Made by a program: the position numbers and the translations under genes. A stretch of DNA of 28,560 nucleotides from a virus, in the IMG/VR virus record IMGVR_UViG_3300002835_000835, positions 1-28,560 of that record; one strand, 5' to 3'. This document shows, piece by piece, positions 696-28,384 of this stretch (position 1 is the first letter of the stretch; the number at the start of each line of letters is the position of its first letter). Under the pieces are notes generated by a model that worked only from the letters and a program-made list of their open reading frames with translations, was not told the origin of the DNA and searched no databases.

Positions 696-1804
696 TATGC
701 TTCACCTGCTCCTTGCGCCAGGGTTAAGGTCACGCGTTCAGGCCCATTTTCACCTGGTTGCACTGACAAACCAACAATACGATAAATCTCATCTAATGTA
801 TTAGGGAAACGGCTATCAGTAATGATTATGCGAGCGTCATCACCTACCTCATAAGATCCAAATACCGGATCAACATAAGCAGGCACTACCACTTTAAGAA
901 CTGTTGGAGGATAAGAAGTAGCAACCGATTGAGCAATAGCCAAATTGTCTAAAACGGTTTGATCTGTAATATCCGAGTAATTAGCGGTAGTTTCTAGCAA
1001 CGCCCAACCCGTAGATAATTTAGTAATGTCTTGAGCAATTGCAATTAGTTTGCCTTCATTACTGCCAGCGCCTAATGCGTAAACGGTGTTGGCAACAATT
1101 GATCCATCTTCAGGGTACTCATATTCAACCATGTTGCCGGCAGGAAATGTAAAAACAGGAACATTTGGATCGCCAAATGAATAAGCCAAACCACTACGCG
1201 GATAATAAGTATTAAAGTATTTTTCAGGTTGCCCGTTAATGTCATAATCAACATCAATAGCAAAATCAAAACCATCAGATTGACGGCTTAAATCTTGAAT
1301 GGCTTGAAATACATTTTTTAATTCATAATTGTAATAAATGCGATCTACAAGAATACCTGATGTTGTTTGTCCGGCTGAGTTATATCCAACACCAATGTCA
1401 CCGTAAGTTGCGTTTTGCGCATTTTCAATAAGTGTTTTTGCTATAAGTAATTGATCTACATTTGTGAATTGAACATCTTGTGTAACGCGCCTATGATCAA
1501 AATATGAAATCCATTCTTGAGCGTTAAAAGTAAGGGTTTGTGTAGTGCTGTTATAGGAGCGCCCCCACACAACTCCGCCCCATACCAAAATGCCGTCACG
1601 ATCTACATACATTCCGCAACGGGCAGGAATAGTGGCAAGTTCAACATTATATTTATCGGCGTTTACACCCGACAATAGAAGGTGTCCTTGAAAACTACCA
1701 GGCTGATTTAATTGCTGAGTAAAACCAACGCCAGTTAAAGGCAATTCACCAATAATCGTATTGCTTGATAAATCAACAAATAAATAACGGTATGTGGTAG
1801 CCAT
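695..1804 (-). CDS. Minor tail protein, siphovirus ReqiPepy6 Gp37-like
   Basis: A 369-residue protein. Its opening (MATTYRYLFVDLSS, then a domain with QLNQPGSFQGHL and GILVWGGVVW at about residues 30-80) matches the general pattern of the Gp37-like tail proteins of actinobacterial siphoviruses, which belong to the baseplate hub or tail-tip group. The middle has an FNAQEWISYFDHRRV segment and the C-terminus an YEVGDDARIII...YRIVGLSV beta-rich segment, both usual for tail-hub folds. The start is coupled by TAATG to the FN3/glycine-rich gene upstream. It probably forms part of the tail tip below the distal tail protein. The family assignment is by pattern recognition, and a profile search would settle it. 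Confidence 0.8.
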   Translation of the reverse strand: MATTYRYLFVDLSSNTIIGELPLTGVGFTQQLNQPGSFQGHLLLSGVNADKYNVELATIPARCGMYVDRDGILVWGGVVWGRSYNSTTQTLTFNAQEWISYFDHRRVTQDVQFTNVDQLLIAKTLIENAQNATYGDIGVGYNSAGQTTSGILVDRIYYNYELKNVFQAIQDLSRQSDGFDFAIDVDYDINGQPEKYFNTYYPRSGLAYSFGDPNVPVFTFPAGNMVEYEYPEDGSIVANTVYALGAGSNEGKLIAIAQDITKLSTGWALLETTANYSDITDQTVLDNLAIAQSVATSYPPTVLKVVVPAYVDPVFGSYEVGDDARIIITDSRFPNTLDEIYRIVGLSVQPGENGPERVTLTLAQGAGEA

Positions 1805-2952
1805 TAGCCACCTACTTGAGCGCGTGTATAACGCACTACAACAATTCCTGAACCTCCATTAGCGCCAGGTTGAGATCCTTGATTGTCTCCATTCAAACCA
1901 CCGCCACCACCACCGCCGCCAGTGTTTGTTGTTCCAGTAACAGGTGATGTGTAACCCGTACCTGGGCCTGATCCTCCTGCACCACCGCCGCCTGATCCGC
2001 CAGTTGTTGCTGTAAAAGCCGCAAATAAACCACCACCACCACCGCCACCAACAAATCCACTAGCAAGAGATGAAATAGGAGGCCAAGAAGAATATGTGTT
2101 TACTCCATTAGCGCCATTGTTTGATGATGTTGCTGCCGCTCCTGCGCCACCGCCACCACCGCCTGCAAGAGTTGTAAAATTGCCTGCAACTGATCCAGCG
2201 TTACCTTGTCCTGATGTTCCTGCTCCGCCTGCATAAAATGTAGTTGAAGGAGTACCGCTTACAACTGGTGAGTCAATTGCTCCACCGCCGCCTGAACCAC
2301 CTGTTGCACCTACCGCCTGAGTTCCACCTAATCCACCCGCAGTTGCAGAATAAGAACTTAAAGAAGAATTAGATCCACTGCCGCCAATTGTTGCTGAATA
2401 ACTACCAATAGAAAGTGCTTGAGAAGCATCATATTTAACTCCGCCTGCACCTCCGCCGCCGCCAACAAAGCGTATGAAGTTACCGCTTGAACCTGTAAAA
2501 TAACCAGCGCCACCAGCGCCACCGCCTGCAACAACAAGAATATCTGCGGTAAGTGGGCCATCTGCAATTCCTAATGTGCCGTTACCAGTAAAGGCTCTGT
2601 AATAATAAGTTGCATCAGATGACAATGTTCCGCCTGTAACAACAGGAAGAACAGGCGTGACGCTATTTGATGCGGCTGAAGCAATAGATGAAACACCATA
2701 AGAAGTATTTGTTACAACTGTAAATGTGTATGCCGTGTTGTTAGTTAATCCAGTCACGGTTAAAGGTGAACCTGATCCCGTAGCAGTCAATCCGCCAGGA
2801 GAAGAAGTTGCGGTGTAAGTAATAGCGCCACCTTTGCCTGTGTAGGTAGGGGGTGTAAAAGTAACCGTTGCTTGCGTATTGCCAGCGGTTGCTGTTCCAA
2901 TTGTGGGTGCGCCAGGTTGCCCACCTGAACCTACAAAACTTGTGTACAGCAT
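1804..2952 (-). CDS. FN3 domain plus glycine-rich tail adhesin
   Basis: A 382-residue protein. Residues about 11-105 form a fibronectin type III domain (GAPTIGTATAGNTQATVTF, then LTVTGLTNNTAYTFTV). A short motif follows, YYYRAFTGNGTLGI (about 115-132), then ILVVAGGGAGG opens a long glycine-rich domain that ends with GSGIVVVRYTRAQV. This closing signature and the poly-Gly runs are typical of glycine-rich phage tail-tip adhesins, whose known T2-type gp38 relatives bind the host receptor through glycine-rich loops. The protein is a distant relative of the three MSGVLG proteins at 22008-24691. It is coupled by TAATG at both ends. A role in receptor binding is an inference. Confidence 0.82.
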   Translation of the reverse strand: MLYTSFVGSGGQPGAPTIGTATAGNTQATVTFTPPTYTGKGGAITYTATSSPGGLTATGSGSPLTVTGLTNNTAYTFTVVTNTSYGVSSIASAASNSVTPVLPVVTGGTLSSDATYYYRAFTGNGTLGIADGPLTADILVVAGGGAGGAGYFTGSSGNFIRFVGGGGGAGGVKYDASQALSIGSYSATIGGSGSNSSLSSYSATAGGLGGTQAVGATGGSGGGGAIDSPVVSGTPSTTFYAGGAGTSGQGNAGSVAGNFTTLAGGGGGGAGAAATSSNNGANGVNTYSSWPPISSLASGFVGGGGGGGLFAAFTATTGGSGGGGAGGSGPGTGYTSPVTGTTNTGGGGGGGGLNGDNQGSQPGANGGSGIVVVRYTRAQVGG

Positions 2953-16609: not shown

Positions 16610-17860
16610 TTAACCAACGGGATCATAGCCAAATTCGTTGATACTGTCACCGTCAAACCATAAATCTTTGGCCGGAATTTTCATACTAATTACATGGCCT
16701 TCTTCTAAATTACTTAATAAGTGGCTATCTGCATAAGAAGGTGAAAGTGTGACCCAATCGCCAGGATTGATCCTGTCCACTTCTTTTGGAACTGCTCTGT
16801 AAATAGTTACCATTTCGTTAGGCTTGTTTTTAATTCTTTGTAAAGCCGCAACGCTTTCTCTATCAGATTGATCCATGCCTGTTGTATAAATGTTTGGCCT
16901 TGCATAAAAATCAGGCATCATTTCTTCAATGTAAGTAGCAGGAGAACCAAATTCATCTGCTCGTCTAGGCGCTTGATGGTATCCGCGATAATCAGTAACA
17001 GGTTTATTAACTAATTGACCGCCATCATCAAGGGTAGGCGCTGTAATGTTTCCATCAATTCCTGTTGGGTCATCTTCCATTCCAGGAATTACAGGCAATA
17101 AAACGCAACGGCAGTGCGGGTGAGCAGGGGGTTGGGTATCTCCTGATGCAAATGTTTGCCCAATAACAATTACTTGTCCGTCATTCTTTGCGCACACATC
17201 ACACGGATCAGATACGGCCCATTGCATCTTTTGCAATTCTGCATCTTTGTAACTTTGAATAGACCCAAAAGACATGGCGCGGCTCTGTTCAGTAATTGCA
17301 ATAGTAAGAGCGCGGCTCGGATTTGCTACATGCCTTCCAATCATTACAGCGGCACTTTCAGCATCTAAACCAGCGGCAATTGAGTCAGAAAGAGCAGTAC
17401 CTAAATTTACAATAGTTTCTTTATTAAAGTTTTTGAAATAACTATCAGCGCCCACTAATTGCAAATAAGCCTCAAATCCTTTACTGGGATTAAGAAGTAA
17501 GGCCGTTACTCTGTCTCCTGGTTTCCAATTATCCCAATTAACTTCAATGTCATCAGCCTTGTTTGCCTCACGGGTTTTGCGTAACCATTCTTCTGCGGCT
17601 ACTCGCCCCAAAACATACGCTTCAGCCCATGCTCGCATTACTGCTTTTTTTATAGGCTCATCATTAAGATAAACATTAAGTAAAATCCATGAACGAGCGC
17701 GTACACGATCTTGCGTAGGGTTATCAGTAGGTTGCGGTTGCGTCTCCTGGTATTTATTAAAAACTCTTTTGAAGTCTGCTACCTGGTGCAGTGCCGCCCT
17801 GATTTTCACTGCGTTCTTTGCCGCTAAGCGCCCATCTGCCTTGAGAGCGCCCTCAATCAT
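16610..17860 (-). CDS. MuF-like minor head protein with ADP-ribosyltransferase-like C-terminus
   Basis: A 416-residue protein overlapping the portal stop by ATGA, the usual place for a MuF-type minor head protein. Residues about 1-260 hold the MuF region, ending in the zinc-binding-type pattern DPCDVCAKNDGQ (about 217) and PPAHPHCRCVLLPV (about 248). The C-terminal 130 residues carry an IYRAVP arginine motif (about 352), a TLSPSYA stretch (about 372) and INEFGYDP near the end (about 409). In that order they resemble the R-S-E motifs of ADP-ribosyltransferases, which are known to be fused to MuF proteins. If active, the domain could be injected with DNA. The catalytic reading is inference. Confidence 0.78.
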   Translation of the reverse strand: MIEGALKADGRLAAKNAVKIRAALHQVADFKRVFNKYQETQPQPTDNPTQDRVRARSWILLNVYLNDEPIKKAVMRAWAEAYVLGRVAAEEWLRKTREANKADDIEVNWDNWKPGDRVTALLLNPSKGFEAYLQLVGADSYFKNFNKETIVNLGTALSDSIAAGLDAESAAVMIGRHVANPSRALTIAITEQSRAMSFGSIQSYKDAELQKMQWAVSDPCDVCAKNDGQVIVIGQTFASGDTQPPAHPHCRCVLLPVIPGMEDDPTGIDGNITAPTLDDGGQLVNKPVTDYRGYHQAPRRADEFGSPATYIEEMMPDFYARPNIYTTGMDQSDRESVAALQRIKNKPNEMVTIYRAVPKEVDRINPGDWVTLSPSYADSHLLSNLEEGHVISMKIPAKDLWFDGDSINEFGYDPVG

Positions 17861-19704
17861 GTTAGATAAGCCTTAGCCAGCGCTCGCGCAGTATCTAAAT
17901 CACCATCAAAAGCACAACGGTTGAGCGCATCTCCAACAATCGGATCAAGTGATTTAAACTCAAATAATCTTGCGCGCTTACCCTTAGCCGCCCATTTCAT
18001 AAATGCTTTTACTTCTGTCACTTCTTCATCTTCAGGCTTTACCTCTGTTGAAGGTTTTTGCTCAAGAGGATTTGGAGTTGTAGGCGCGTCAGGTGTTGCA
18101 TCAGGGCCGCTTAATGTTGGGGCAACTGACGCAGTAGCCGCATCAATCAATCCATCAGGTGAGAATAAATAAACAGCCCCTCCAGTTGCAAGGATTGGCA
18201 TGTCAGCCTGTGGTGTATCAAGCAAAGGCAAACCTAATTCTGATCTGCGCTCATTGATTGACTTACCGCCTGAACGCACTTCAATTTCATTTTTGCGGGC
18301 GTTTTCTTCTGTGTCTTTGCGCTCTGATGTAAGCAATTTAAATTCAAGTTCACGCGGCATACCTAAGTATGTGTAAGAAAGATTTGTAAGTTGCTTAGAA
18401 ATCCAGTTAGCAAGAGGCCCAATACCTAACGCTTCACCATTTTCTGCCTGTCCTTCTGAGAAACCAGCGCCGCCCAATCCGCTCTTTGGTGAGAAACCAA
18501 TTTCCGCAGGTTGTACGCCAAAATGTCCGCAAATAGAAGTGACTAAATAATCATCAAGTGTGTCTTTGAATTTCTCGCCATAGCCCTCATTAACAATAGG
18601 TGTAAGGCCCTTTGGCAAAAGTCTTGCGCGCTTGCGTTGCTCTGTCTGTCCTGCAAGATCATCATTAAGAATACGCTCATAAGCAAGCAAGAGATCAGGG
18701 TTAGTTCCCCAATCTTCATCAGTTGTAAACATAAGTTCAGGCATAACACCATCTGTGTATTCTGCTCTGATCCATTGTTGGCGGCGCAAATAAATGTCAG
18801 CCAGTGGAAGCGCTCTTTCTACTGGGCTAAATCCATAAACAGTTGTTGAACGGCGATTGCGCACCATGTAAGCCAATTGATCAGATGTGAATTCACCATC
18901 TGCTTTTGGATCTTCTTCTGTTGCGGCAAACTCTGAGCGTGGGAAACCATAAAGAATTTGTTGGAACGCGGCGTTGGGTGGCATTGGGCGCATACCGCGG
19001 TCATCAATAAGTGGTTTGATTGTTGAACCATCAAGAATTTGGAAACCGTATAAATCGCCACCTACTGTTGGTTGTGGGTAAACAGCAAGCGCATCAATTA
19101 CAAGAATGTCCTCAACGGCAATGTTAATCCAGTCCTGCCATGTGTAACCATTTGCCTTATCAGGGTTTTCCCAAAATGTACGCATGCGGTTAATTTCATC
19201 TGTGTACTTTTCGCGGGCTTTCGCCATAGCGCGCACATGATCACCACCTGACTCTGCGGCAATTTTTTCTGATGCGTCTGCACCAAGCACAATGTCAAAC
19301 TGTAAGCCATTCATCTTTGATTTAGTTACTTCAATGCAACGGCGCAAAATGTCAATGCTATCCGCCGCGTCTCTTAATGTTGAAAATGGAACTAAGCGCG
19401 TTGGAACAATGTTAATGTTCTGAGCAACCTGGTACTCATAACGGCGCGGTTCAGGGCGGCCTGTTGCGGGATTGATTGGGTTAATTGCACCAGGGATAAT
19501 TGGATTGCCTGGGCCAAATGGAACTGTTGCGCTAAATGGTGCGCGTGGGAGTGCGACATTGTTGCCGTATGTCTGTTGCATTGCTAAACCAGTTTGGGCC
19601 ATAAGTGCATCAGTGCCGATTGTTGTAGCACCGGCAGGCAGGTTAGGGCCTTTTTCAATGTTGCCAGTTGCTATTGCTCTTGCGATACGGTCACGCAGAC
19701 CCAT
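17857..19704 (-). CDS. Portal protein
   Basis: A 615-residue protein. It has the HK97/SPP1-type portal order: a stretch around residues 100-160 (LRDAADSIDILRRCIEVTKS), a conserved core (YTWQDWINIAVEDILVIDAL, then RSTTVYGFSPVERALPLADI), and the wing/stem region ending with KDTLDDYLVTSICGHFGVQP and the following AEIGFSP. Twelve copies should form the ring through which DNA enters the head and to which connector and MuF proteins attach. GGGAG, 6 nt before the ATG, is a good ribosome binding site. The C-terminal 100 residues are Pro/Thr-rich and then helical (GDALNRCAFDGDLDTARALA), an extension of unknown role. It is the first head gene on this strand. Confidence 0.92.
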   Translation of the reverse strand: MGLRDRIARAIATGNIEKGPNLPAGATTIGTDALMAQTGLAMQQTYGNNVALPRAPFSATVPFGPGNPIIPGAINPINPATGRPEPRRYEYQVAQNINIVPTRLVPFSTLRDAADSIDILRRCIEVTKSKMNGLQFDIVLGADASEKIAAESGGDHVRAMAKAREKYTDEINRMRTFWENPDKANGYTWQDWINIAVEDILVIDALAVYPQPTVGGDLYGFQILDGSTIKPLIDDRGMRPMPPNAAFQQILYGFPRSEFAATEEDPKADGEFTSDQLAYMVRNRRSTTVYGFSPVERALPLADIYLRRQQWIRAEYTDGVMPELMFTTDEDWGTNPDLLLAYERILNDDLAGQTEQRKRARLLPKGLTPIVNEGYGEKFKDTLDDYLVTSICGHFGVQPAEIGFSPKSGLGGAGFSEGQAENGEALGIGPLANWISKQLTNLSYTYLGMPRELEFKLLTSERKDTEENARKNEIEVRSGGKSINERRSELGLPLLDTPQADMPILATGGAVYLFSPDGLIDAATASVAPTLSGPDATPDAPTTPNPLEQKPSTEVKPEDEEVTEVKAFMKWAAKGKRARLFEFKSLDPIVGDALNRCAFDGDLDTARALAKAYLT

Positions 19705-19787
19705 GCGTATCTCCCTTGTTATGCCCCTTGAAAATCAGGCGTGTTGTAATGATAGCGATTTTCTGAACATCATGTATTGTAAGGTTT
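19705..19787. promoter_or_regulatory. Divergent intergenic region between portal and plus-strand cassette
   Basis: The 83-bp gap is the only place where two operons diverge, so promoters in both directions are expected here. A TTGAAA (19728-19733) is followed by no convincing -10 at proper spacing (best candidate TGATAG at 19750). The plus gene has only a weak TAAGG 3 nt before its ATG; the minus portal gene has a good GGGAG. No operator-like palindrome was seen. Confidence 0.3.
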
Positions 19788-20789
19788 ATGAACTTAGTAG
19801 AGAAGGCAGTTCAACACGGTGGCAAACTTGCACCCCTGGTAATTCCTCACGGATTAACTAGCGGTACAGGGCTAATGAACCCATCAATTTTTATTGATGA
19901 CAAAGGCAACATTCTTGTGAACTTACGCCATGTTAATTACACGCTGTACCACGCAGAAAATGATCAAAGGTTTCCTAGCCGATTTGGGCCACTGTCGTAT
20001 CTGCACCCTGAAAAGGATCGCCGTTTAGTAACAGTCAATTATCTATGCCGCCTCAATGATGATCTTGAGATGACCCACCATGCCAAAGTGGATACATCTG
20101 AATTAGATGTTGAACCTATTTGGGAGTTTGTAGGTGAAGAAGATTGCCGCGTTATTCAGTGGCTAGATGATTACTACCTAGTGGGAGTTCGCCGCGATAC
20201 AACAACTAATGGCGTAGGCCGCATGGAGTACAGCCGGATTGAGATTGACTGGGATAACTGGGCAGTCAAAGAAGTCAGGCGTGTGCGCATTAAAGCCCCT
20301 GCTCCTGATGCTTCTTATTGTGAGAAGAATTGGATACCCGTCCTAGATAAGCCTTACCACTTCATCAAATGGACTATGCCAACAGAATTAGTTTATGCCA
20401 ATCCCATAAGCGGGGAGTGTGAGCAGGTATTTGTTAAGCCAACAGCGGTTGCGCCTAAAGATCAGCGTGGATCTAGCCAGGTCATACGGTGGGGCAATAT
20501 GTACATATCCATTACCCATGAAGTAGATCTGTTTAAGAATTACCTAAAGCAGAAAGATGCAATTTACCGTCACCGTTTAGTTGTATGGGATCAAGAACTA
20601 AATGTTGTGGGGCTAAGTAAGGAATTCTCATTCTTAGATGCTCGCGTTGAATTCTGTGTAGGGGCGGCGGTTCACAAAGGTAACCTTTTGGTGTCTTTTG
20701 GTTTCCAGGATAACGCCGCTTTTGTCTTGCAAGTACCTGGTGTAGTGGTAGAAGATCTGATTGTGGAGGCATTAGCGTATGAAAATTGA
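19788..20789 (+). CDS. Beta-propeller glycosidase-like protein (GH130/GH43-like)
   Basis: A 333-residue protein. Repeated blades can be read: NPSIFIDDKGNILVNLRHVN, then CRVIQWLDDYYLVGVRRD, then EKNWIPVLDKPYHFIKW, then GSSQVIRWGNMYISITHEVD, and finally EFCVGAAVHKGNLLVSFGFQ with following DNAA. This resembles five-bladed propeller proteins related to GH130 phosphorylases and GH43-type glycosidases that are found near glycosyltransferase genes. It has no signal peptide. It is the first gene of the opposite-strand cassette and overlaps the next start by 11 nt. A sugar-processing or sugar-binding role is plausible, but catalytic residues cannot be assigned with confidence. Confidence 0.65.
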   Translation: MNLVEKAVQHGGKLAPLVIPHGLTSGTGLMNPSIFIDDKGNILVNLRHVNYTLYHAENDQRFPSRFGPLSYLHPEKDRRLVTVNYLCRLNDDLEMTHHAKVDTSELDVEPIWEFVGEEDCRVIQWLDDYYLVGVRRDTTTNGVGRMEYSRIEIDWDNWAVKEVRRVRIKAPAPDASYCEKNWIPVLDKPYHFIKWTMPTELVYANPISGECEQVFVKPTAVAPKDQRGSSQVIRWGNMYISITHEVDLFKNYLKQKDAIYRHRLVVWDQELNVVGLSKEFSFLDARVEFCVGAAVHKGNLLVSFGFQDNAAFVLQVPGVVVEDLIVEALAYEN

Positions 20790-21342
20790 GCAATTAGTTA
20801 TAGAACTATCTAAAGATCCGTTCAATCCAGCGCTTAATTTTGATGTAGCGGTGGAGTATGAGAGGCAAAACCAAACAGCATCAGCCGTTTCTTTCTATTT
20901 GCGTACCGCTGAATACGGTCATATAACGCACCCCACCCTGGTTTATGCGTCACTTCTTAAAGCGGCCCATTGTTTTGATGACCAAAATGACCGCCAGGCA
21001 ACTGTGAGTAATTGTTTATTGCAGGCTGTGGCTTATTTGCCGTACCGTCCTGAAGGTTATTTTTTACTAGCCCAGTTCCATGAACGCTTAGGCCAATGGC
21101 AAGAGTGTTACACCTGGGCAAACATTGGATTGCATCATCAACTTAACTCAGTGCTTCCTGTTCATGTTGGTTATGAAGGTCAATATGTGCTGTTGTTTGA
21201 AAAGGCAGTAAGCGCCTGGTGGATCGGGCGCGCAGATGAAAGCATTGAAATACTAAAACGATTAAATGAAATGGACATAGAGCCAGCGTACAAATCCGCA
21301 GTGCAGCACAATCTTGAAAGGATTGGCCATGCTTCTGTTTGA
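20779..21342 (+). CDS. TPR-like helical repeat protein
   Basis: A 187-residue protein. Its helix-turn-helix units of about 35 residues include PFNPALNFDVAVEYERQNQT, SAVSFYLRTAEYG, RPEGYFLLAQFHERLGQWQE and WIGRADESIEILKRLNEMDI, which have the small/large residue spacing of TPR or Sel1-like repeats. A GGAGG lies at 20765-20769, 9 nt before the ATG. It shares 11 nt with the preceding gene and 14 nt with the methyltransferase, forming a tight three-gene operon. Similar modules occur fused to glycosyltransferases, so it may scaffold the other two enzymes. No transferase domain is seen. Confidence 0.7.
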   Translation: MKIEQLVIELSKDPFNPALNFDVAVEYERQNQTASAVSFYLRTAEYGHITHPTLVYASLLKAAHCFDDQNDRQATVSNCLLQAVAYLPYRPEGYFLLAQFHERLGQWQECYTWANIGLHHQLNSVLPVHVGYEGQYVLLFEKAVSAWWIGRADESIEILKRLNEMDIEPAYKSAVQHNLERIGHASV

Positions 21343-22003
21343 TGTTGGCGCTAATCGCGGTGACGCAGTGCTTGCAGGGCTTAACCAGGGATACCGCGTA
21401 ATAGCCTTAGAAGCCGCTCCACGCGTGTTTTCAGAGTTAGTTAGTAACTTTATCTATAACCCAAATGTTGTGCCTCTTAGAATGGCCGTAGCAAGTGCTA
21501 ACAACATGCGCGCTAAATTTTATGAGGCTGAGGAAGATGGGCTCAGTACGCTAAACATAGATTGGCTCACTCATAAAGATCTTCCATACGCAGGAAAACC
21601 TCACCGTGAGATTGAGGTAAACACAATTACTTTAGACACACTTGCAGATAAGTACGGCAACCCTGATCTAATTAAAATTGATGTTGAGGGTGCTGAGTGG
21701 GAAGTATTTGCAGGAATGACACGCAACTACGGTGGCATGCTTTGTTTTGAGTGGACATTTGAAACAATTAAACATCATGAAGCCCAATTAGATTACTTGC
21801 ACACATTGGGCTATAAAGAAATGGCCGCGCAATACATTGTGAACCATTTAGAAGCACCCCAACAATGGGGTCAATTGCAATCCAATAATGACAAGCAACT
21901 TTATGCCTGGCATCAACTCACATCTGATGAATGGATAGACGGCGGTTGGAAAGTTGCCAATTTACGCCCTACCGCAGATGTAGGAATGTTATGGGTTAGA
22001 TAA
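21329..22003 (+). CDS. FkbM-family SAM-dependent methyltransferase
   Basis: A 224-residue protein. The ATG at 21329, with AAAGGA 6 nt upstream, is preferred over an in-frame TTG at 21314. Motif I (DVGANRGDAVL, about residues 4-14) forms the SAM-binding loop, with an acidic residue after strand 2 (ALEAAP). The second FkbM signature is PDLIKIDVEGAEWEVFAGM (about 110-128). Family members O-methylate sugars or polyketides. The operon with a propeller glycosidase-like protein suggests methylation of a glycan, either the host surface polysaccharide or one attached to phage fibres. The stop codon is 4 nt from the convergent stop of the glycine-rich gene. Confidence 0.85.
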   Translation: MLLFDVGANRGDAVLAGLNQGYRVIALEAAPRVFSELVSNFIYNPNVVPLRMAVASANNMRAKFYEAEEDGLSTLNIDWLTHKDLPYAGKPHREIEVNTITLDTLADKYGNPDLIKIDVEGAEWEVFAGMTRNYGGMLCFEWTFETIKHHEAQLDYLHTLGYKEMAAQYIVNHLEAPQQWGQLQSNNDKQLYAWHQLTSDEWIDGGWKVANLRPTADVGMLWVR

Positions 22004-22022
22004 CTTTTTATTGAAAAGTTAT
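22000..22022. terminator. AT-rich palindrome spanning two convergent stop codons
   Basis: ATAACTTTT (22000-22008) and AAAAGTTAT (22014-22022) form a perfect 9-bp stem with a 5-nt loop. Both the plus-strand TAA (22001-22003) and the minus-strand TAA (22010-22008) lie within it. A/T runs on each side would allow a weak bidirectional terminator, but only one G-C pair is in the stem. Confidence 0.4.
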
Positions 22023-22823
22023 GCTCCCATTTCCTGTCCAGTTGTAAATTCTAAAACCACCTGTTGTTGTGACGGTTGGAGAACCAGTTGTAGATGACGC
22101 TGCGGGAAATGTATCCGGATAGCGAACAATCACACGACCCGATCCACCAGGTACGGCTAAACCGCCGCCTCCGCCGCCTCCGCCAGTGTTTGCAGTTCCA
22201 GCAACTCCACCATCACCACTAGGGCCGCCACCACCAGCACCGCCACCGCCTGCACCGCCTGCACCGCCTGTGTAGTATCCGCCGCCGCCGCCTCCGCCTG
22301 CGTAAGTAACAGAAGATCCGCTAATGCTTGAAGTTAAACCTGCACCACCTGCACCACCTACACCACCACCACCATTTCCACCAACAGCATTTTTTCCACC
22401 GCCGCCTCCGCCTGCGTTATCAGGAGGATTACCTGAGCCGCTTCCGCCATTGTTTCCTTGTCCGCTAGTGCCAGCGCCATTTGAAACGCCTGTTGCGCCA
22501 CCGCCGCCTGAGCCACCATTTGATCCTGAAGCAGAGTTTGGCGTTGCACCTCTACCTCCACCTGTTGTAGATATTGAGGCAAAAACTGAACTTCCGCCAT
22601 TGGTTGCTCCGCCTGCTCCACCTGCTCCAACGGTTACTGTGTAAGAAACTCCTGTGGATATGTTCAAACTTCCAGTTAATAATCCACCAGCACCGCCACC
22701 ACCTGAAGATGCGTCCGTATAACCGCCGCCGCGACCTCCACCTGCAACAACAAGGTATTCAACAGATGAAAGAACTGTTATTCCTTTTATTGCCCCAATG
22801 AGACCGCCTAGAACGCCACTCAT
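22008..22823 (-). CDS. Glycine-rich tail adhesin-like protein, paralogue 3
   Basis: A 271-residue protein. It opens with MSGVLGGLIG, then VEYLVVAGGGRGGG starts a long Gly-rich domain with many GGGG runs and the closing GSGRVIVRYPDTF. After it comes a short C-terminal module, GGFRIYNWTGNGSITF. Gly-rich domains of this type form tail-tip adhesins with variable loops between the glycine runs. The start directly follows the stop of the upstream paralogue (TAAATG). The three tandem paralogues suggest either subunits of a heteromeric fibre or gene duplication of the receptor-binding part. Confidence 0.78.
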   Translation of the reverse strand: MSGVLGGLIGAIKGITVLSSVEYLVVAGGGRGGGYTDASSGGGGAGGLLTGSLNISTGVSYTVTVGAGGAGGATNGGSSVFASISTTGGGRGATPNSASGSNGGSGGGGATGVSNGAGTSGQGNNGGSGSGNPPDNAGGGGGGKNAVGGNGGGGVGGAGGAGLTSSISGSSVTYAGGGGGGGYYTGGAGGAGGGGAGGGGPSGDGGVAGTANTGGGGGGGGLAVPGGSGRVIVRYPDTFPAASSTTGSPTVTTTGGFRIYNWTGNGSITFQ

Positions 22824-23792
22824 TTAATCCACTTGGCTTCTTGTGTAGCGAACAATTACAATACCTGAACCGCCTGGTGAAGCGGGTTGTTCAAAGTTAT
22901 TGCTACCGCTATTTCTATTGCCTCCACCACCGCCGCCAACATTAGCAAGACCTGAACCTGAACCATTAGGACTTCCAGCGACATTACCATCTCCGCCTTT
23001 TCCGCCGCCACCATTAGTAGCGCCAGCGGGGGTTTGTCCAGCGCGTCCAGCACTGCCTCCGCCGCCAAACCAAAATGTTCCGCCTATATTTTGACCGCTA
23101 GAAGTTACAGAGCCAATAGTGCTATATGTTGTAGTTCCTTGACCACCAGCGCCCGCACCAGGGGCTATTGCACCTGCCCCGCCTGTTGCGCCAGCGCCGC
23201 CTCCACCACCGCCGCATACATCAGAAGAAGAAGAACCAGTAAAATTTCCTGTTCCTCCACTATTTCCTTGAGTCGGTACTGCAGGACTTTGAGAAATATA
23301 ACCACCAACGCCCTCACTTTCGCCATCATTTATGTAGTAACTGCCGCCACCACCTGATGATCCTCCTGATTGACCTACTAATCTTGCGTCATAACCTGCA
23401 CCGCCGCCGCCTCTGCCGCCGCCAGTTGCCGTTATTGAACCAATAACAGAAGCATTTCCATTTGTTGTACTTGGGCCACCAGCACCAACGGTTACTGATA
23501 AATTTGAACTAGATGATTGAGAAGTTGCAAATATAATTCCGCCTGCTCCGCCTCCACCGCCCGCAGTGTAAACAACTGGCAACGAAGATGTTTTAGACCA
23601 ACCACTTCCGCCTCCGCCTCCGCCTGCAATAACTAATGCATCAAAAGTAAGCGCTTTGCCAGTGATGCCTAAAGTTCCATTATCAGTAAATTTGCGGTAA
23701 TAATAAGTTGCGTCAGAGTAAAGAGTGCCACCTGTAACAACAGGCTTACCCACAACAGATGATCCAATGAGGCCGCCCAAAACGCCGCTCAT
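22824..23792 (-). CDS. Glycine-rich tail adhesin-like protein, paralogue 2
   Basis: A 322-residue protein. It opens with MSGVLGGLIGSSVVGKPVVT, followed by GGTLYSDATYYYRKFTDNGT before the Gly-rich domain (ALVIAGGGGGGSGW). The domain ends with GSGIVIVRYTRSQVD, almost the same as in the FN3 protein at 1804-2952. Unlike the flanking paralogues, the FTxNGTL module is N-terminal to the Gly-rich domain. The gene overlaps its neighbour by ATGA. It is probably a fibre or adhesin subunit; receptor specificity cannot be read. Confidence 0.78.
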   Translation of the reverse strand: MSGVLGGLIGSSVVGKPVVTGGTLYSDATYYYRKFTDNGTLGITGKALTFDALVIAGGGGGGSGWSKTSSLPVVYTAGGGGGAGGIIFATSQSSSSNLSVTVGAGGPSTTNGNASVIGSITATGGGRGGGGAGYDARLVGQSGGSSGGGGSYYINDGESEGVGGYISQSPAVPTQGNSGGTGNFTGSSSSDVCGGGGGGAGATGGAGAIAPGAGAGGQGTTTYSTIGSVTSSGQNIGGTFWFGGGGSAGRAGQTPAGATNGGGGKGGDGNVAGSPNGSGSGLANVGGGGGGNRNSGSNNFEQPASPGGSGIVIVRYTRSQVD

Positions 23793-24691
23793 ACCGTCAA
23801 ACTTCCATTTCCAGTAAATTTGTAATAAGTAAAACCGCCAGTTTCATAGCGGGTTGGTGAACCAGTTGTTGCACTGGCAGTGTAACTTCCCGTGGCTCTT
23901 AAAATAACTATTCCGCTTCCGCCGTTACCGCCGCCGCCGCTATCAAATGGCCCAAAAACAGTACCGCCTCCGCCGCCACCGCCTGTTGAACCTGCGGCTG
24001 AAAATCCATAATAATTGCCTCCGCCCTGGTATCCATTACCGCCTCCGCCGCCACCGCCTACGCCAAGATAACCACCACCGCCGCCGCCTGCATAATTGCC
24101 TGACACTCCTGATGAGGTTGCACTTGCCCATACTGAATAAGCACCAGTTGCCCCACCGCCGTTACCACCTATCGCGTTATTGCCACTGCTACCACCACCA
24201 CCGCCTGCACCGCCACCGCCTGCACCTCCTGATGCTGACTCACCTGAACAACTGCCGCCAGCGTTACCCTGTCCTGAAGTTCCTCCGCCGCCTCCGCCAG
24301 TTAGCGAACTTCCTCCGCCACCTGAACCACCTGATTGACCCGCACCTGATGTACTTGGAGATTGCGCTCTACCGCCACCGACTGCGGTTGTAAATCCTGT
24401 TACTGATGAGTTTCCACCGTTTGTTGAATTGGTAGAATAACGGAAGAAAAATTCATTATTCCAACTGTAATTATCAGCACCGCCTCCGCCACCAACTGCA
24501 ACTGTTAAAACTGTGCCGCTGTTTAATGATTGTGTTGCGCTTACAACTCCACCAGCACCGCCGCCACCGCCGCCATATTGATAATTACCACCACCAGCGC
24601 CGCCGCCTCCGCCTGCAATAATAAGGCTTGTAAAACTTATTGCAGGAGGTTTACCAACTGCCGCAATTACACTGCCTAGAACACCACTCAT
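23789..24691 (-). CDS. Glycine-rich tail adhesin-like protein, paralogue 1
   Basis: A 300-residue protein. The start at 24691 (MSGVLGSVIAAVGKPP) is preferred over an in-frame ATG at 24721, because it forms a TAATG with the preceding stop and matches the paralogues' MSGVLG. The Gly-rich domain begins SLIIAGGGGGAGGG and ends GSGIVILRATGSY. A C-terminal GGFTYYKFTGNGSLTV module follows, as in paralogue 3. Dense GGN, GGGG and SGG runs suggest a glycine-rich sandwich fold rather than disorder. The codons for glycine vary, so the repeats are not simple recent expansions. Confidence 0.78.
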   Translation of the reverse strand: MSGVLGSVIAAVGKPPAISFTSLIIAGGGGGAGGGNYQYGGGGGGAGGVVSATQSLNSGTVLTVAVGGGGGADNYSWNNEFFFRYSTNSTNGGNSSVTGFTTAVGGGRAQSPSTSGAGQSGGSGGGGSSLTGGGGGGTSGQGNAGGSCSGESASGGAGGGGAGGGGGSSGNNAIGGNGGGATGAYSVWASATSSGVSGNYAGGGGGGYLGVGGGGGGGNGYQGGGNYYGFSAAGSTGGGGGGGTVFGPFDSGGGGNGGSGIVILRATGSYTASATTGSPTRYETGGFTYYKFTGNGSLTV

Positions 24692-25557
24692 TATGTAAGT
24701 CCATTGCCACTGATAATCCATGATGTAGAAGTAATTTTAACGGCTGTTGCAATACCAAACGCTGCAAGTGTGCGTGAACCTGTAGTTCCTGTACCGGCCA
24801 AAATTAAAGTGTCAGTTGTAATTGCAATAGTAACTGTTGTGCCAGTAGCAGCAATAAATACAACTGTTGTACCAATTGGGTAAGCAACTGATCCGTTAGC
24901 AGGGATAGTAACTGTACGGGTTGCAGTTGAATAAATATGTTCTCCAGCGTCCGCTGCAACTAATGTGTATGAACCAGTTGTTGCCGCTGCGCTTTGCGGA
25001 ATTCCCATATAACCAACACCTCTTGAAGATGTAGTTGTTGTTGCGTCTAAAACAAGACCTGTAACAGAAGTAGTAAAGTTGTTTGCGCCAGTCCAGGTGT
25101 TGTTTGTACCTAGAATATCTGCACCTGAAATACCTTGAGTACCAGTCAAACCTTGAGTACCGGTAGTTCCCTGAGCGCCAGTTAATCCCTGCAAACCTTG
25201 TGTACCCTGGCTACCAATTGTTCCTTGCAAACCTTCAGTGCCTTGAACGCCTTGTGTGCCTTGCGATCCTGTTAATCCCTGCGCACCAGTTATACCTTGT
25301 ACGCCCTCCGTTCCTTGCAAACCTGTTGTGCCCTGGATACCCTGCGTTCCAGTTGTGCCCTGTGTGCCAGTTGTACCTTGTGCGCCAGCGGCTCCCGCTG
25401 TGTAAGCATAAGCAAGAGAATTCCACGCGGTTACGCCATCACCCAACTTAAATTTAGATGTGTCGGTTTCAAGACCCATCTCGCCAGCGGCAAGTGTTGG
25501 ATTAGCGCTTGTCCACGCGCTTGCTATGTCGCGGCGATTTTGTAAGCGTGATGTCAT
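24691..25557 (-). CDS. Tail fibre protein with Mtd-like N-terminus and collagen segment
   Basis: A 288-residue protein. Residues 1-50 (LQNRRDIASAWTSANPTLAA, then GEMGLETDTSKFKLGDGVTA, then WNSLAY) form the short N-terminal attachment domain shared by many phage fibres and Mtd-type proteins. Residues about 58-150 are G-x-y triplets with a strong hexad G-x-Q-G-x-T period, and residues 150-288 form a C-terminal beta domain (AGEHIYSTATRTVTIPANGS, then WIISGNGL) similar to that of the protein at 3317-4204. AAGGA lies 7 nt before the ATG. A collagen triple helix would give a trimeric fibre. Confidence 0.83.
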   Translation of the reverse strand: MTSRLQNRRDIASAWTSANPTLAAGEMGLETDTSKFKLGDGVTAWNSLAYAYTAGAAGAQGTTGTQGTTGTQGIQGTTGLQGTEGVQGITGAQGLTGSQGTQGVQGTEGLQGTIGSQGTQGLQGLTGAQGTTGTQGLTGTQGISGADILGTNNTWTGANNFTTSVTGLVLDATTTTSSRGVGYMGIPQSAAATTGSYTLVAADAGEHIYSTATRTVTIPANGSVAYPIGTTVVFIAATGTTVTIAITTDTLILAGTGTTGSRTLAAFGIATAVKITSTSWIISGNGLT

Positions 25558-25579: not shown

Positions 25580-28384
25580 TTAGAATGAAACCGTTGCTCC
25601 GCCAGCATCAATTGTATATGTCCATGATGATGTAGTCGCTATTCCTGAATTATAGATGATGTCTGTGTTAGGTGTGACATTTCCGCCATCTAAATAATTA
25701 ACAATGTAGGCATTTGCGTCCTCACCAGTAACACCTTGAACACCTTGAGTACCAAACAAACCTTGCGGCCCTTGTAAACCTTGTACTGATTGCGTTCCTT
25801 GTGTTCCTTGCAGACCTTCAAGACCCTGTATTCCTTGAATTCCTTCAGTACCCTGAGTACCTGTTAAGCCCTGAGTACCAACTAAACCTTGCGAACCAGT
25901 TGTTCCCTGTGAGCCTGTAGTACCTTGAATACCCTGCGTACCTTGCGTTCCAACAATACCTTGAATTCCTTCTGTACCCTGAACTCCTTGAATACCAGTT
26001 TCACCAGTTGCACCTTGAGTTCCAGTTAATCCCTGAACTCCTTGTGTACCAGTAATTCCCTGTAATCCTTCAATGCCTTGAATTCCTTCAAGTCCTTGAG
26101 TACCAGTTGTTCCTTGAGAACCATTTAATCCGTTAGCACCCTGAGATCCAGTAACGCCTTGCAATCCCTCAAGTCCTTGAGTTCCCTGTGTGCCTTGTGT
26201 TCCGTTAGTTCCCTGGCTACCTGTGACTCCTTGCAATCCTTCAGTTCCCTGAGTTCCTTGCAGACCTTCTAAGCCTTGCGCGCCAGTCGTTCCTTGCGTT
26301 CCATCATGGCCCTGAATTCCTTGCACACCCTGCGTACCAGTAGTTCCTTGAATACCGTCTAAGCCCTGTGATCCTGTTTGTCCTTGAGAACCAGTTGTAC
26401 CCTGAACGCCTTGCGTTCCTTGAATACCGTTTAATCCTTGAGTACCTGTTTGGCCTTGAATTCCAGTGAAACCTTGAGTTCCCTCAACACCTTGAATTCC
26501 TTCTACGCCCTGCGATCCAGTTTCGCCTTGAGCGCCAACAAGTCCTTGTGTACCTGTTGCGCCTTGCAAGCCAGTAATTCCCTGAGCGCCTTGAGATCCA
26601 GTAATTCCCTGAGATCCTGTAACACCCTGCAAACCTTCTGCGCCTTGAATTCCAGTAGTGCCTTGAATTCCCTGCAAACCAGTAGTTCCCTGCGCACCTG
26701 TCGTACCTTGCGCGCCAGTTGTTCCTTGAACGCCCACGCTTTGAGTAATAAGAGAAATGTTATGATTATTGGCAAAGTTTGTTGTGCCTGTTCCGCTTGA
26801 GTCTAAAAGTGCAACAGGAAAAGTGAAATAACTATTAGGAACATTTGTAGGTGTGCCGTTTACTTGCCATTCTTGATAATTGGCAGAGTCACTTCTATCT
26901 TGAATAAAGAAGATGTCACCATTTTTAATGTTTGCTAATAAGAAATCAATGTCCACATTTGCATCTGTTAAATGAGATACATAAATGTTTGTTGAGTTAA
27001 TTTGTGTGGCATTATTCCATTTAATGTCACCAGCATTAGGGGGAGGTGTTTGTGAATTTGCTACCGCTACATAATCAAAAATAGATGATGATGTACCGCT
27101 TGCACCAGTATTACCCTGCACACCTTGAATACCATCTAAACCTTGAACACCCTGGCTACCAATAGTTCCTTGTACGCCTTGAGTTCCCTGCGCTCCAACA
27201 GTTCCCTGAATTCCATCAAGTCCTTGTGAACCTGTTACACCCTGAACACCAATAACACCTTGTGTTCCTTGCGCTCCATCTGCACCTTGAATACCTTCAG
27301 TTCCCTGTGATCCAGTTATGCCTTGAATACCCGTTGTGCCTTGCGCACCTGCAACACCCTGTAAACCTGTTAAACCTTGCGCGCCAATAGCACTCTGAAT
27401 ACCTTGTGTACCTTGAGCGCCTTCTAAACCTTGAAGTCCTTCAATACCTTGCGTACCTTCAACACCCTGCACACCAATAATTCCTTGCGCGCCTGTGTTG
27501 CCTTGAATTCCATTAAGCCCTTGAGATCCATCATGACCTTGAACGCCTTGTATTCCTTGCGCTCCTGTATTGCCTTGAATACCAGTTAAACCTTGAGAAC
27601 CAATTGTTCCAGTTGTACCTTGAGAACCTGTCTCACCAATTGCTCCTTGTGAACCAGTTAAACCTTGAGATCCAATTGTTCCTTGTGATCCCGCTCCACC
27701 TGTAGTTCCTTGAACACCAGTAATGCCCTGAACACCTTCAATACCTTGAGAACCAATTGTTCCTTGTATTCCTGTTGCACCTTGAACACCATTAGTACCA
27801 GTTATACCTTGCGCACCGATTGTTCCCTGAACACCAATTAAACCTTGTGTTCCAGTTGCGCCCTGCGCACCAATTGTTCCTTGAGATCCTGTAAAACCTT
27901 GAGTGCCGGTTGATCCTTGCACACCAAACGCACCTTGAATACCTTCAAGGCCTTGCGCACCAGTTGTGCCTTGCGTACCAACAGATCCTTGTACACCAAT
28001 TGAACCTTGAATACCTGTGTTGCCTTGAATACCTTGAGTTCCCTGACTACCTGCAACACCTTGCAAACCAGCGTCACCTTGAATACCAGTTAATCCTTGT
28101 GAGCCGGTAGTTCCTTGCGCACCAATTGTGCCTTGCGCGCCATTAAATCCTTGTACACCTGTAACACCCTGCGGGCCTGCAATACCTTGTGTGCCTTGTG
28201 CTTGATTAAAGCCACCGCCCTGTAAACCCTGTGTTCCTTGAACACCTTGCGCAGAAAAGTTTCCTGAAGGCCCTTGAATACCTTGAGCGCCTGGTTGCCC
28301 CGCAGGGCCAGGAGTAACAACAATAACATTTGGAGTTCCAACAGGGTTTGGATTGTTAAGAAAACTGTTTGGGTTGTATGTCAT
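25580..28384 (-). CDS. Long collagen-like tail fibre protein
   Basis: A 934-residue protein. After a proline/asparagine-rich N-terminus (residues 1-28), collagen block 1 (about 29-425) and block 2 (about 548-886) flank a globular insert (about 426-547, [20 protein letters not shown] through [11 protein letters not shown]). The last 48 residues ([14 protein letters not shown] through [10 protein letters not shown]) form a small beta cap. The triplets alternate as G-x-Q-G-x-[TNEVIA], a six-residue period with almost no Pro. A trimeric, rod-like fibre several hundred nanometres in contour is plausible at about 0.29 nm per residue. ATGA coupling with the upstream gene places it in the fibre operon. 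Confidence 0.85.
25720..26740 (-). repeat. Collagen block 2: 9-bp triplet repeat with 18-bp superperiod
   Basis: About 113 consecutive G-x-y triplets, most in hexads of the form GxQGxT. Gln is coded by both CAA and CAG and Gly by several codons, so the DNA copies are degenerate. Near-identical segments such as [17 protein letters not shown] recur several times. Confidence 0.85.
27110..28300 (-). repeat. Collagen block 1: 9-bp triplet repeat with 18-bp superperiod
   Basis: About 132 G-x-y triplets from residue 29 to about 425, with rare breaks (for example around TGGAGSQG and [15 protein letters not shown]). The residues after Q-G are mainly T, I, V, L and A. Threonine is frequent in the third triplet position, a possible O-glycosylation position as in bacterial collagens. 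Confidence 0.85.

Follow-up and report, generated by a model that had tools for sequence, protein, structure and literature searches.

Propellers of the GH130 type are known mainly as mannoside-degrading enzymes. An invariant Asp has the catalytic role in GH130, and in the hydrolases of the family glutamates take the place of the basic residues that bind phosphate (PMC4599007). The GT108 family has a GH130-like propeller with both transferase and phosphorylase activity, and its Leishmania members (MPT-1, MPT-2 and MPT-4) use this fold for synthesis (PMC8950772), acting on a soluble mannan storage polymer. Among phages, those of mycobacteria have virion proteins that are glycosylated by phage-encoded enzymes (Freeman et al. 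2023, cited in PMC12619734), the glycans being on the capsid and tail tube according to that citation. Two isolates, the Synechococcus phages S-SCSM2R and DSL-LC02, carry a propeller that is 47-49% identical to the one described below and is named "MGP protein" and "beta-mannosyltransferase", respectively, names that are annotation only. In both, the propeller gene is followed, with an 8-nt overlap, by a TPR module. Both differ from the locus described here in that this module is fused to further domains, in S-SCSM2R to an FkbM-like stretch plus DUF6445 and in DSL-LC02 to FkbM plus radical SAM-SPASM. The DSL-LC02 cassette lies on the strand opposite to the tail-fibre genes on both its sides, and the cassette analyzed in this study is likewise on the strand opposite to the fibre genes beside it.

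That cassette is part of a viral record of 28,560 bases (the whole stretch analyzed, hereafter the window), which is a siphovirus-type fragment based on the presence of a tape measure and a Dit-like protein. It consists of genes for a propeller (PROP), a TPR protein and an FkbM-type methyltransferase (Table 1). Our analysis confirmed the layout given in an earlier note, in which three overlapping plus-strand genes lie between a minus-strand portal gene and minus-strand fibre genes, and bore out its overlaps of 11 nt (PROP/TPR) and 14 nt (TPR/FkbM, with the ATG start), so that its proposal of one operon is supported by three same-strand overlapping genes. A TTG at 21314 is a possible alternative FkbM start and gives a protein of 229 aa. 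In comparisons with five relatives, four where computable, dN/dS was 0.03-0.12 for PROP, 0.10-0.13 for TPR and 0.10-0.18 for FkbM; all three genes are real and under purifying selection, with PROP the most constrained.

Table 1. Features of the cassette and its surroundings, with positions in the window
Feature	Position	Strand	Description and basis
Mu-F-like protein	16610-17860	-	
Portal	17857-19704	-	phrog_2662, E 1e-55
Candidate cassette promoter	19741..19787	+	TGATAGCGAT block, variable spacer, TCATGTATTGTAAGG block directly before ATG
PROP, GH130/GT108-like propeller, proposed glycosyltransferase/synthase	19788..20789	+	333 aa; motif E118-D119-x-R121; AF2, PDB structure matches, hhalign, invariant residues
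TPR protein, proposed docking partner of PROP	20779..21342	+	187 aa; TPR_17, E 1e-5; pairing and natural fusions
FkbM-type methyltransferase	21329 (ATG)..22003	+	224 aa; PF05050 and TIGR01444
Three tandem Gly-rich proteins, candidate acceptors	22008-24721	-	Gly_rich_2, phrog_2295; enrichment beside cassette
Collagen-like fibre protein with Mtd_N domain, candidate acceptor	24691-25557	-	PF01391, PF18454, tail-fibre PHROGs; enrichment
Second collagen-like fibre protein, candidate acceptor	25580-28384	-	Collagen/tail-fibre matches; enrichment

Several features of the neighboring genes were also observed. The window has four Gly_rich_2 paralogues, the three in tandem listed in Table 1 and one at 1804-2952 (minus strand), near tail genes, that has an fn3-like stretch. 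The Mtd_N domain (major tropism determinant N-terminus) of the first collagen-like protein was detected with an E of 6e-10. The C-terminal part of the Mu-F-like protein matches phrog_2579, "ParB C-terminal domain" (E 1e-36), and in related loci this ORF is either split or anywhere between ~200 and 821 aa long (for example, L007, L012 and L037), which suggests swapped C-terminal domains.

We propose that the cassette may well be a cytoplasmic phage glycan-synthesis operon whose likeliest target is a fibre. Acting in the host cytoplasm, PROP, a distant relative of the GH130 mannoside phosphorylases and GT108 mannosyltransferases, would use a phosphate-bearing, host-made donor to transfer a sugar, for which beta-mannose or a close analogue is the likeliest candidate; on mannose itself we are evenly divided. 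The TPR protein would form a complex with PROP and dock the acceptor protein, and FkbM would then O-methylate the added sugar. The likeliest acceptor would be a fibre of the phage itself, Gly-rich or collagen-like, whose gene adjoins the cassette.

As a single sequence PROP had no match in Pfam, PHROG or NCBIfam, and searches of PDB sequences with single PROP or FkbM sequences as queries gave no matches, while a 65-row PROP profile gave one marginal GH130 match, at the EDxR motif (E 0.59). An AF2 model built from a 65-sequence alignment was an all-beta propeller (pLDDT 92.3, pTM 0.91). When this model was compared with the PDB by Foldseek, ranks 1-35 were GH130, GT108 or putative glycosidases that we assigned to these families, and with a second structural aligner the Z scores were 24-20 for GH130, 17-18 for GT108 and ≤17.9 for GH43 and others. 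Judged by the model, GH130 stands out as the structural match, and by Z alone GT108 ranks level with GH43. The GH130 matches include the beta-mannoside phosphorylases Teth514_1788, BF0772 MGP and RaMP1 (Z up to 23.9), with which PROP shares a five-bladed propeller, the number of blades being taken over from the matches. GH43 and sialidase propellers, also considered, ranked below GH130 in the structure comparison. The Leishmania GT108 enzymes were structurally no closer to PROP than GH130, and we know of no TPR or FkbM partner for them.

Profile alignment with hhalign paired PROP over residues 15-325 (full length) with 15 bacterial GH130 sequences (E 4e-5, Prob 70; Prob 4 against only three GH130-type sequences). 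It placed N31, R47, E118-D119-x-R121, H244, Y260 and D308 at GH130-conserved positions, and these residues are invariant among 239 PROP homologues. They include the catalytic Asp in the GxEDxR motif, which is kept in 239/239 homologues, D119 of PROP being the match to the invariant Asp of GH130. PROP differs from the GH130 phosphorylases in its low identity to them (10-17%), its TPR partner, its phage-borne synthetic gene context and its score below the Pfam GH130 cut-off (PF04041, 26 bits), at which the window PROP had no match and its best relative reached 21.4 bits. PROP almost certainly belongs to the GH130/GT108 fold group and lies outside GH130 as Pfam defines it; our claim is that it works like a GH130/GT108 enzyme in a direction predicted to be synthetic. 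The structure prediction and profile comparison that the earlier note had recommended thus returned a GH130/GT108-type propeller with conserved catalytic-type residues. PROP, which that note called "glycosidase-like", is no ordinary glycosidase: it looks synthetic and has no hydrolase-type Glu at the aligned position.

At one profile-aligned position two hydrolase-like sequences (L262 and L280) have a Glu where most other aligned GH130 sequences have Gly, and PROP has Arg227 there (238/239 homologues), so that the Glu pair of a GH130-type hydrolase (beta-mannosidase) was not found at this position. As for phosphate-binding basic residues, H244 and R227 were aligned by profile, and K180 and K194 were matched to the GH130 Lys/Arg pair by eye only. 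The propeller could instead be catabolic and degrade or phosphorolyse a host mannoside, thereby feeding the phage or clearing the surface, as most GH130 enzymes are catabolic and phosphorolysis can run in either direction (PMC8950772). We consider this very unlikely, given that PROP has neither an evident secretion signal nor a hydrolase-type Glu at the aligned position, that its relatives are fused to glycosyltransferases, FkbM and radical SAM, and that the bacterial polyenzymes are in synthetic clusters.

The partners of PROP in relatives were as follows. The 68 genes adjoining distant PROP genes included FkbM (18), GT2 (11), DUF6445 (11), GT17 (6), GT25 (6), galactosyltransferase domain (6), Methyltransf_24 (5) and radical SAM (5) genes. 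The next genes along in these loci encoded more such enzymes, with single matches to GDP-mannose dehydratase, mannose-6-phosphate isomerase and 2OG-oxygenase. There are also fusions of PROP itself, with GT17 in two loci (L117, L148) and with radical SAM-SPASM in another (L150), and the TPR module in relatives is fused to FkbM, GT2, GT17, GT25 or DUF6445. Bacterial PROP is rare, being found in 1/395 genomes in one phylum sample and 4/398 in another. In three bacterial cases (L292, L293 and L294) the PROP domain (E 1e-27 to 1e-30) is inside polyenzymes of the GT2-TPR-PROP-GT type, whose partner domains are GT2 and TPR plus a sugar-binding-region GT domain or FkbM, and whose genes adjoin GT25, GT2-TPR, GT11-like or FkbM genes. 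These polyenzymes resemble the phage cassette in their TPR and FkbM/GT partners, but differ in that each is one chain (1,214-1,310 aa) encoded on a bacterial contig, with no fibre genes recognised beside it. The statement that no glycosyltransferase is visible in the cassette is not supported, as the propeller is in the GH130/GT108 fold group and its counterparts in related loci are joined to glycosyltransferases or lie among them. Based on the fold, the Arg at the hydrolase Glu position and these fusions and polyenzymes, the propeller itself is most likely the glycosyltransferase that seemed to be missing, and it is highly probable that PROP works in the predicted synthetic direction. Two further observations concern these partners: L292 has two GT2-TPR-PROP-GT polyenzymes in tandem, and DUF6445, of which no mention was found in the literature searched, adjoined the TPR module or was fused to it in 11/68 and 11/53 proteins (for example, L002:15109-15699).

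A first scan of viral contigs with PROP identified at least 588 relatives, and among the best 80 loci, which were examined, the order PROP, TPR, FkbM was present in nearly all that were of sufficient length. Three scans together gave 192 distinct PROP genes, 188 of them with >700 nt downstream; the first two used PROP alone as the query and the third a PROP-TPR fusion, which may favour linked pairs. TPR was the next gene or was fused to PROP in 170/188 distinct viral loci and was somewhere in the locus in 183/188, and FkbM followed the pair in 56/56 close-clade loci with enough sequence, these TPR and FkbM counts being lower bounds because of the simple gene caller used (it misses, for example, TPR in L041). 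Where PROP and TPR were adjacent, their genes overlapped in 138/165 cases. Co-occurrence of the three genes elsewhere had been set beforehand as a test of the cassette, and the trio was found, with its order kept, in dozens of other viral contigs. Given this shared gene order and the purifying selection, the trio is no chance arrangement of ORFs.

The PROP-TPR pair is retained while almost all other genes vary, and natural single-chain PROP-TPR fusions occur on five contigs (L151, L183, L193, L195 and L236; the L151 fusion and L170 are one contig). A model of the L151 fusion (pLDDT 88, pTM 0.89), in which the TPR part has ~ten helices, is consistent with a defined PROP-TPR arrangement. The TPR protein of the window scored above the curated TPR_17 cut-off (25.9 versus 24.4 bits), and it is very likely that PROP and TPR form a complex, in which the domain type would give TPR a docking role. 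The earlier identification of the third gene as an FkbM methyltransferase is upheld by scores above the curated cut-offs of PF05050 (62.5 versus 22.7 bits, E 7e-17) and TIGR01444 (79.4 versus 37.7 bits, E 3e-22), and this enzyme probably acts on the added sugar.

From the inverse orientation of the cassette it had been suggested that it was acquired as a unit and has its own promoter. The cassette is indeed conserved as a unit, but its orientation is not universal. Many close-clade loci have the cassette on the reversed strand, but this is not essential, as in L039 and L041 it shares a strand with both the fibre and the portal genes, and in distant relatives the cassette is mostly co-directional with its neighbors. 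Taken by itself, orientation argues only weakly for acquisition. The TGATAGCGAT and TCATGTATTGTAAGG blocks are conserved in 17 distinct sequences upstream of PROP and are kept in L020 despite a differing flank further upstream, which is consistent with the claim of an own promoter and would place it close to the ATG. Since a consensus scan of the window found no sigma-70 consensus on the plus strand, the element is designated a candidate promoter only. Upstream of PROP in L078 and L083, an apparent sigma-70-like -35/-10 pair was noted by eye with the -10 only ~7 nt before the ATG, a position that suggests a leaderless transcript.

The proximity of the cassette to fibre genes was supported by an enrichment of collagen or Gly-rich genes within two genes of it relative to four or more genes away, in both the close clade (OR 4.2, p 2e-6) and distant loci (OR 4.1, p 4e-6), although these p-values are optimistic because the loci are related. 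A collagen or Gly-rich gene is not recognisable near every cassette (82/133 loci over 8 kb), and the enrichment could reflect a gene-insertion hot spot rather than a substrate link. That the fibre is the acceptor, the likeliest of the options, seems to us an evenly balanced proposition. Another virion protein, such as the capsid, portal or tail tube, could be glycosylated instead, with the fibre neighborhood being simply where late accessory genes gather; the portal is the other neighbor of the cassette in the window, and the mycobacteriophage glycans mentioned above (as cited in PMC12619734) are on such proteins. This is unlikely, as distant relatives retain the fibre neighborhood and the DSL-LC02 cassette is between tail-fibre genes. 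The collagen-like GXY composition (Thr 31% at X, Gln 58% at Y) would suit O-glycosylation, and was set aside as evidence because there was no control set of cassette-free phage collagens. A literature search for phage beta-mannosyltransferases and for FkbM glycosylation of tail fibres returned nothing relevant.

Judged by hydropathy only, there is no evident membrane segment or signal peptide in PROP, TPR or FkbM, a result more in keeping with phage proteins being modified in the cytoplasm than with O-antigen conversion. This bears on the unlikely alternative in which the target is a glycan of the host surface, in the capsule or LPS, altered for instance to prevent superinfection or to change a receptor. 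GH130/GT108-like enzymes, FkbM and, in relatives, GT25/WavE are also found in surface polysaccharide synthesis, but the cassette has no membrane protein, flippase or lipid-carrier enzyme and sits in the structural block beside fibre genes, and its TPR partner suggests a protein acceptor. The same location and partner count against hypermodification of phage DNA with sugars, as do the position of the bacterial relatives in glycosyltransferase clusters and the fact that no base-synthesis gene was recognised in the window. We regard DNA as an extremely unlikely substrate, even with phage glycosyltransferases that act on DNA being known (cited in PMC12619734) and radical SAM and oxygenase-like partners being present in relatives.

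Extending the proposed fibre glycosylation to the whole family, we tentatively suggest, with somewhat less confidence than for the cassette itself, that these loci represent a large and so far undescribed phage protein-glycosylation system. At its core would be the near-obligate PROP-TPR pair, with PROP as a protein (beta-mannosyl)transferase, and swappable TPR-fused enzymes (FkbM, GT2, GT17, GT25, radical SAM and DUF6445) would diversify the glycan of a collagen-like tail fibre. If so, a viral synthetic branch would extend the GH130-type fold to phage glycosylation. The PROP family is common in aquatic phage contigs, and since the window PROP matches no PHROG, many phage genes now called unknown would gain a testable function. 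Methylated fibre glycans, if they exist, would matter for how phages that are abundant in lakes and seas recognise their hosts, keep their fibres stable and escape defences that bind fibres. Together with the bacterial polyenzymes, similar propellers in giant viruses would, if the proposal is true, point to a general viral glycosylation engine. A BFVD search gave strong structural matches to PROP in Pithovirus, Solivirus and Indivirus proteins, which had either no annotation or one as a glycosyltransferase, in one case a fucosyltransferase.
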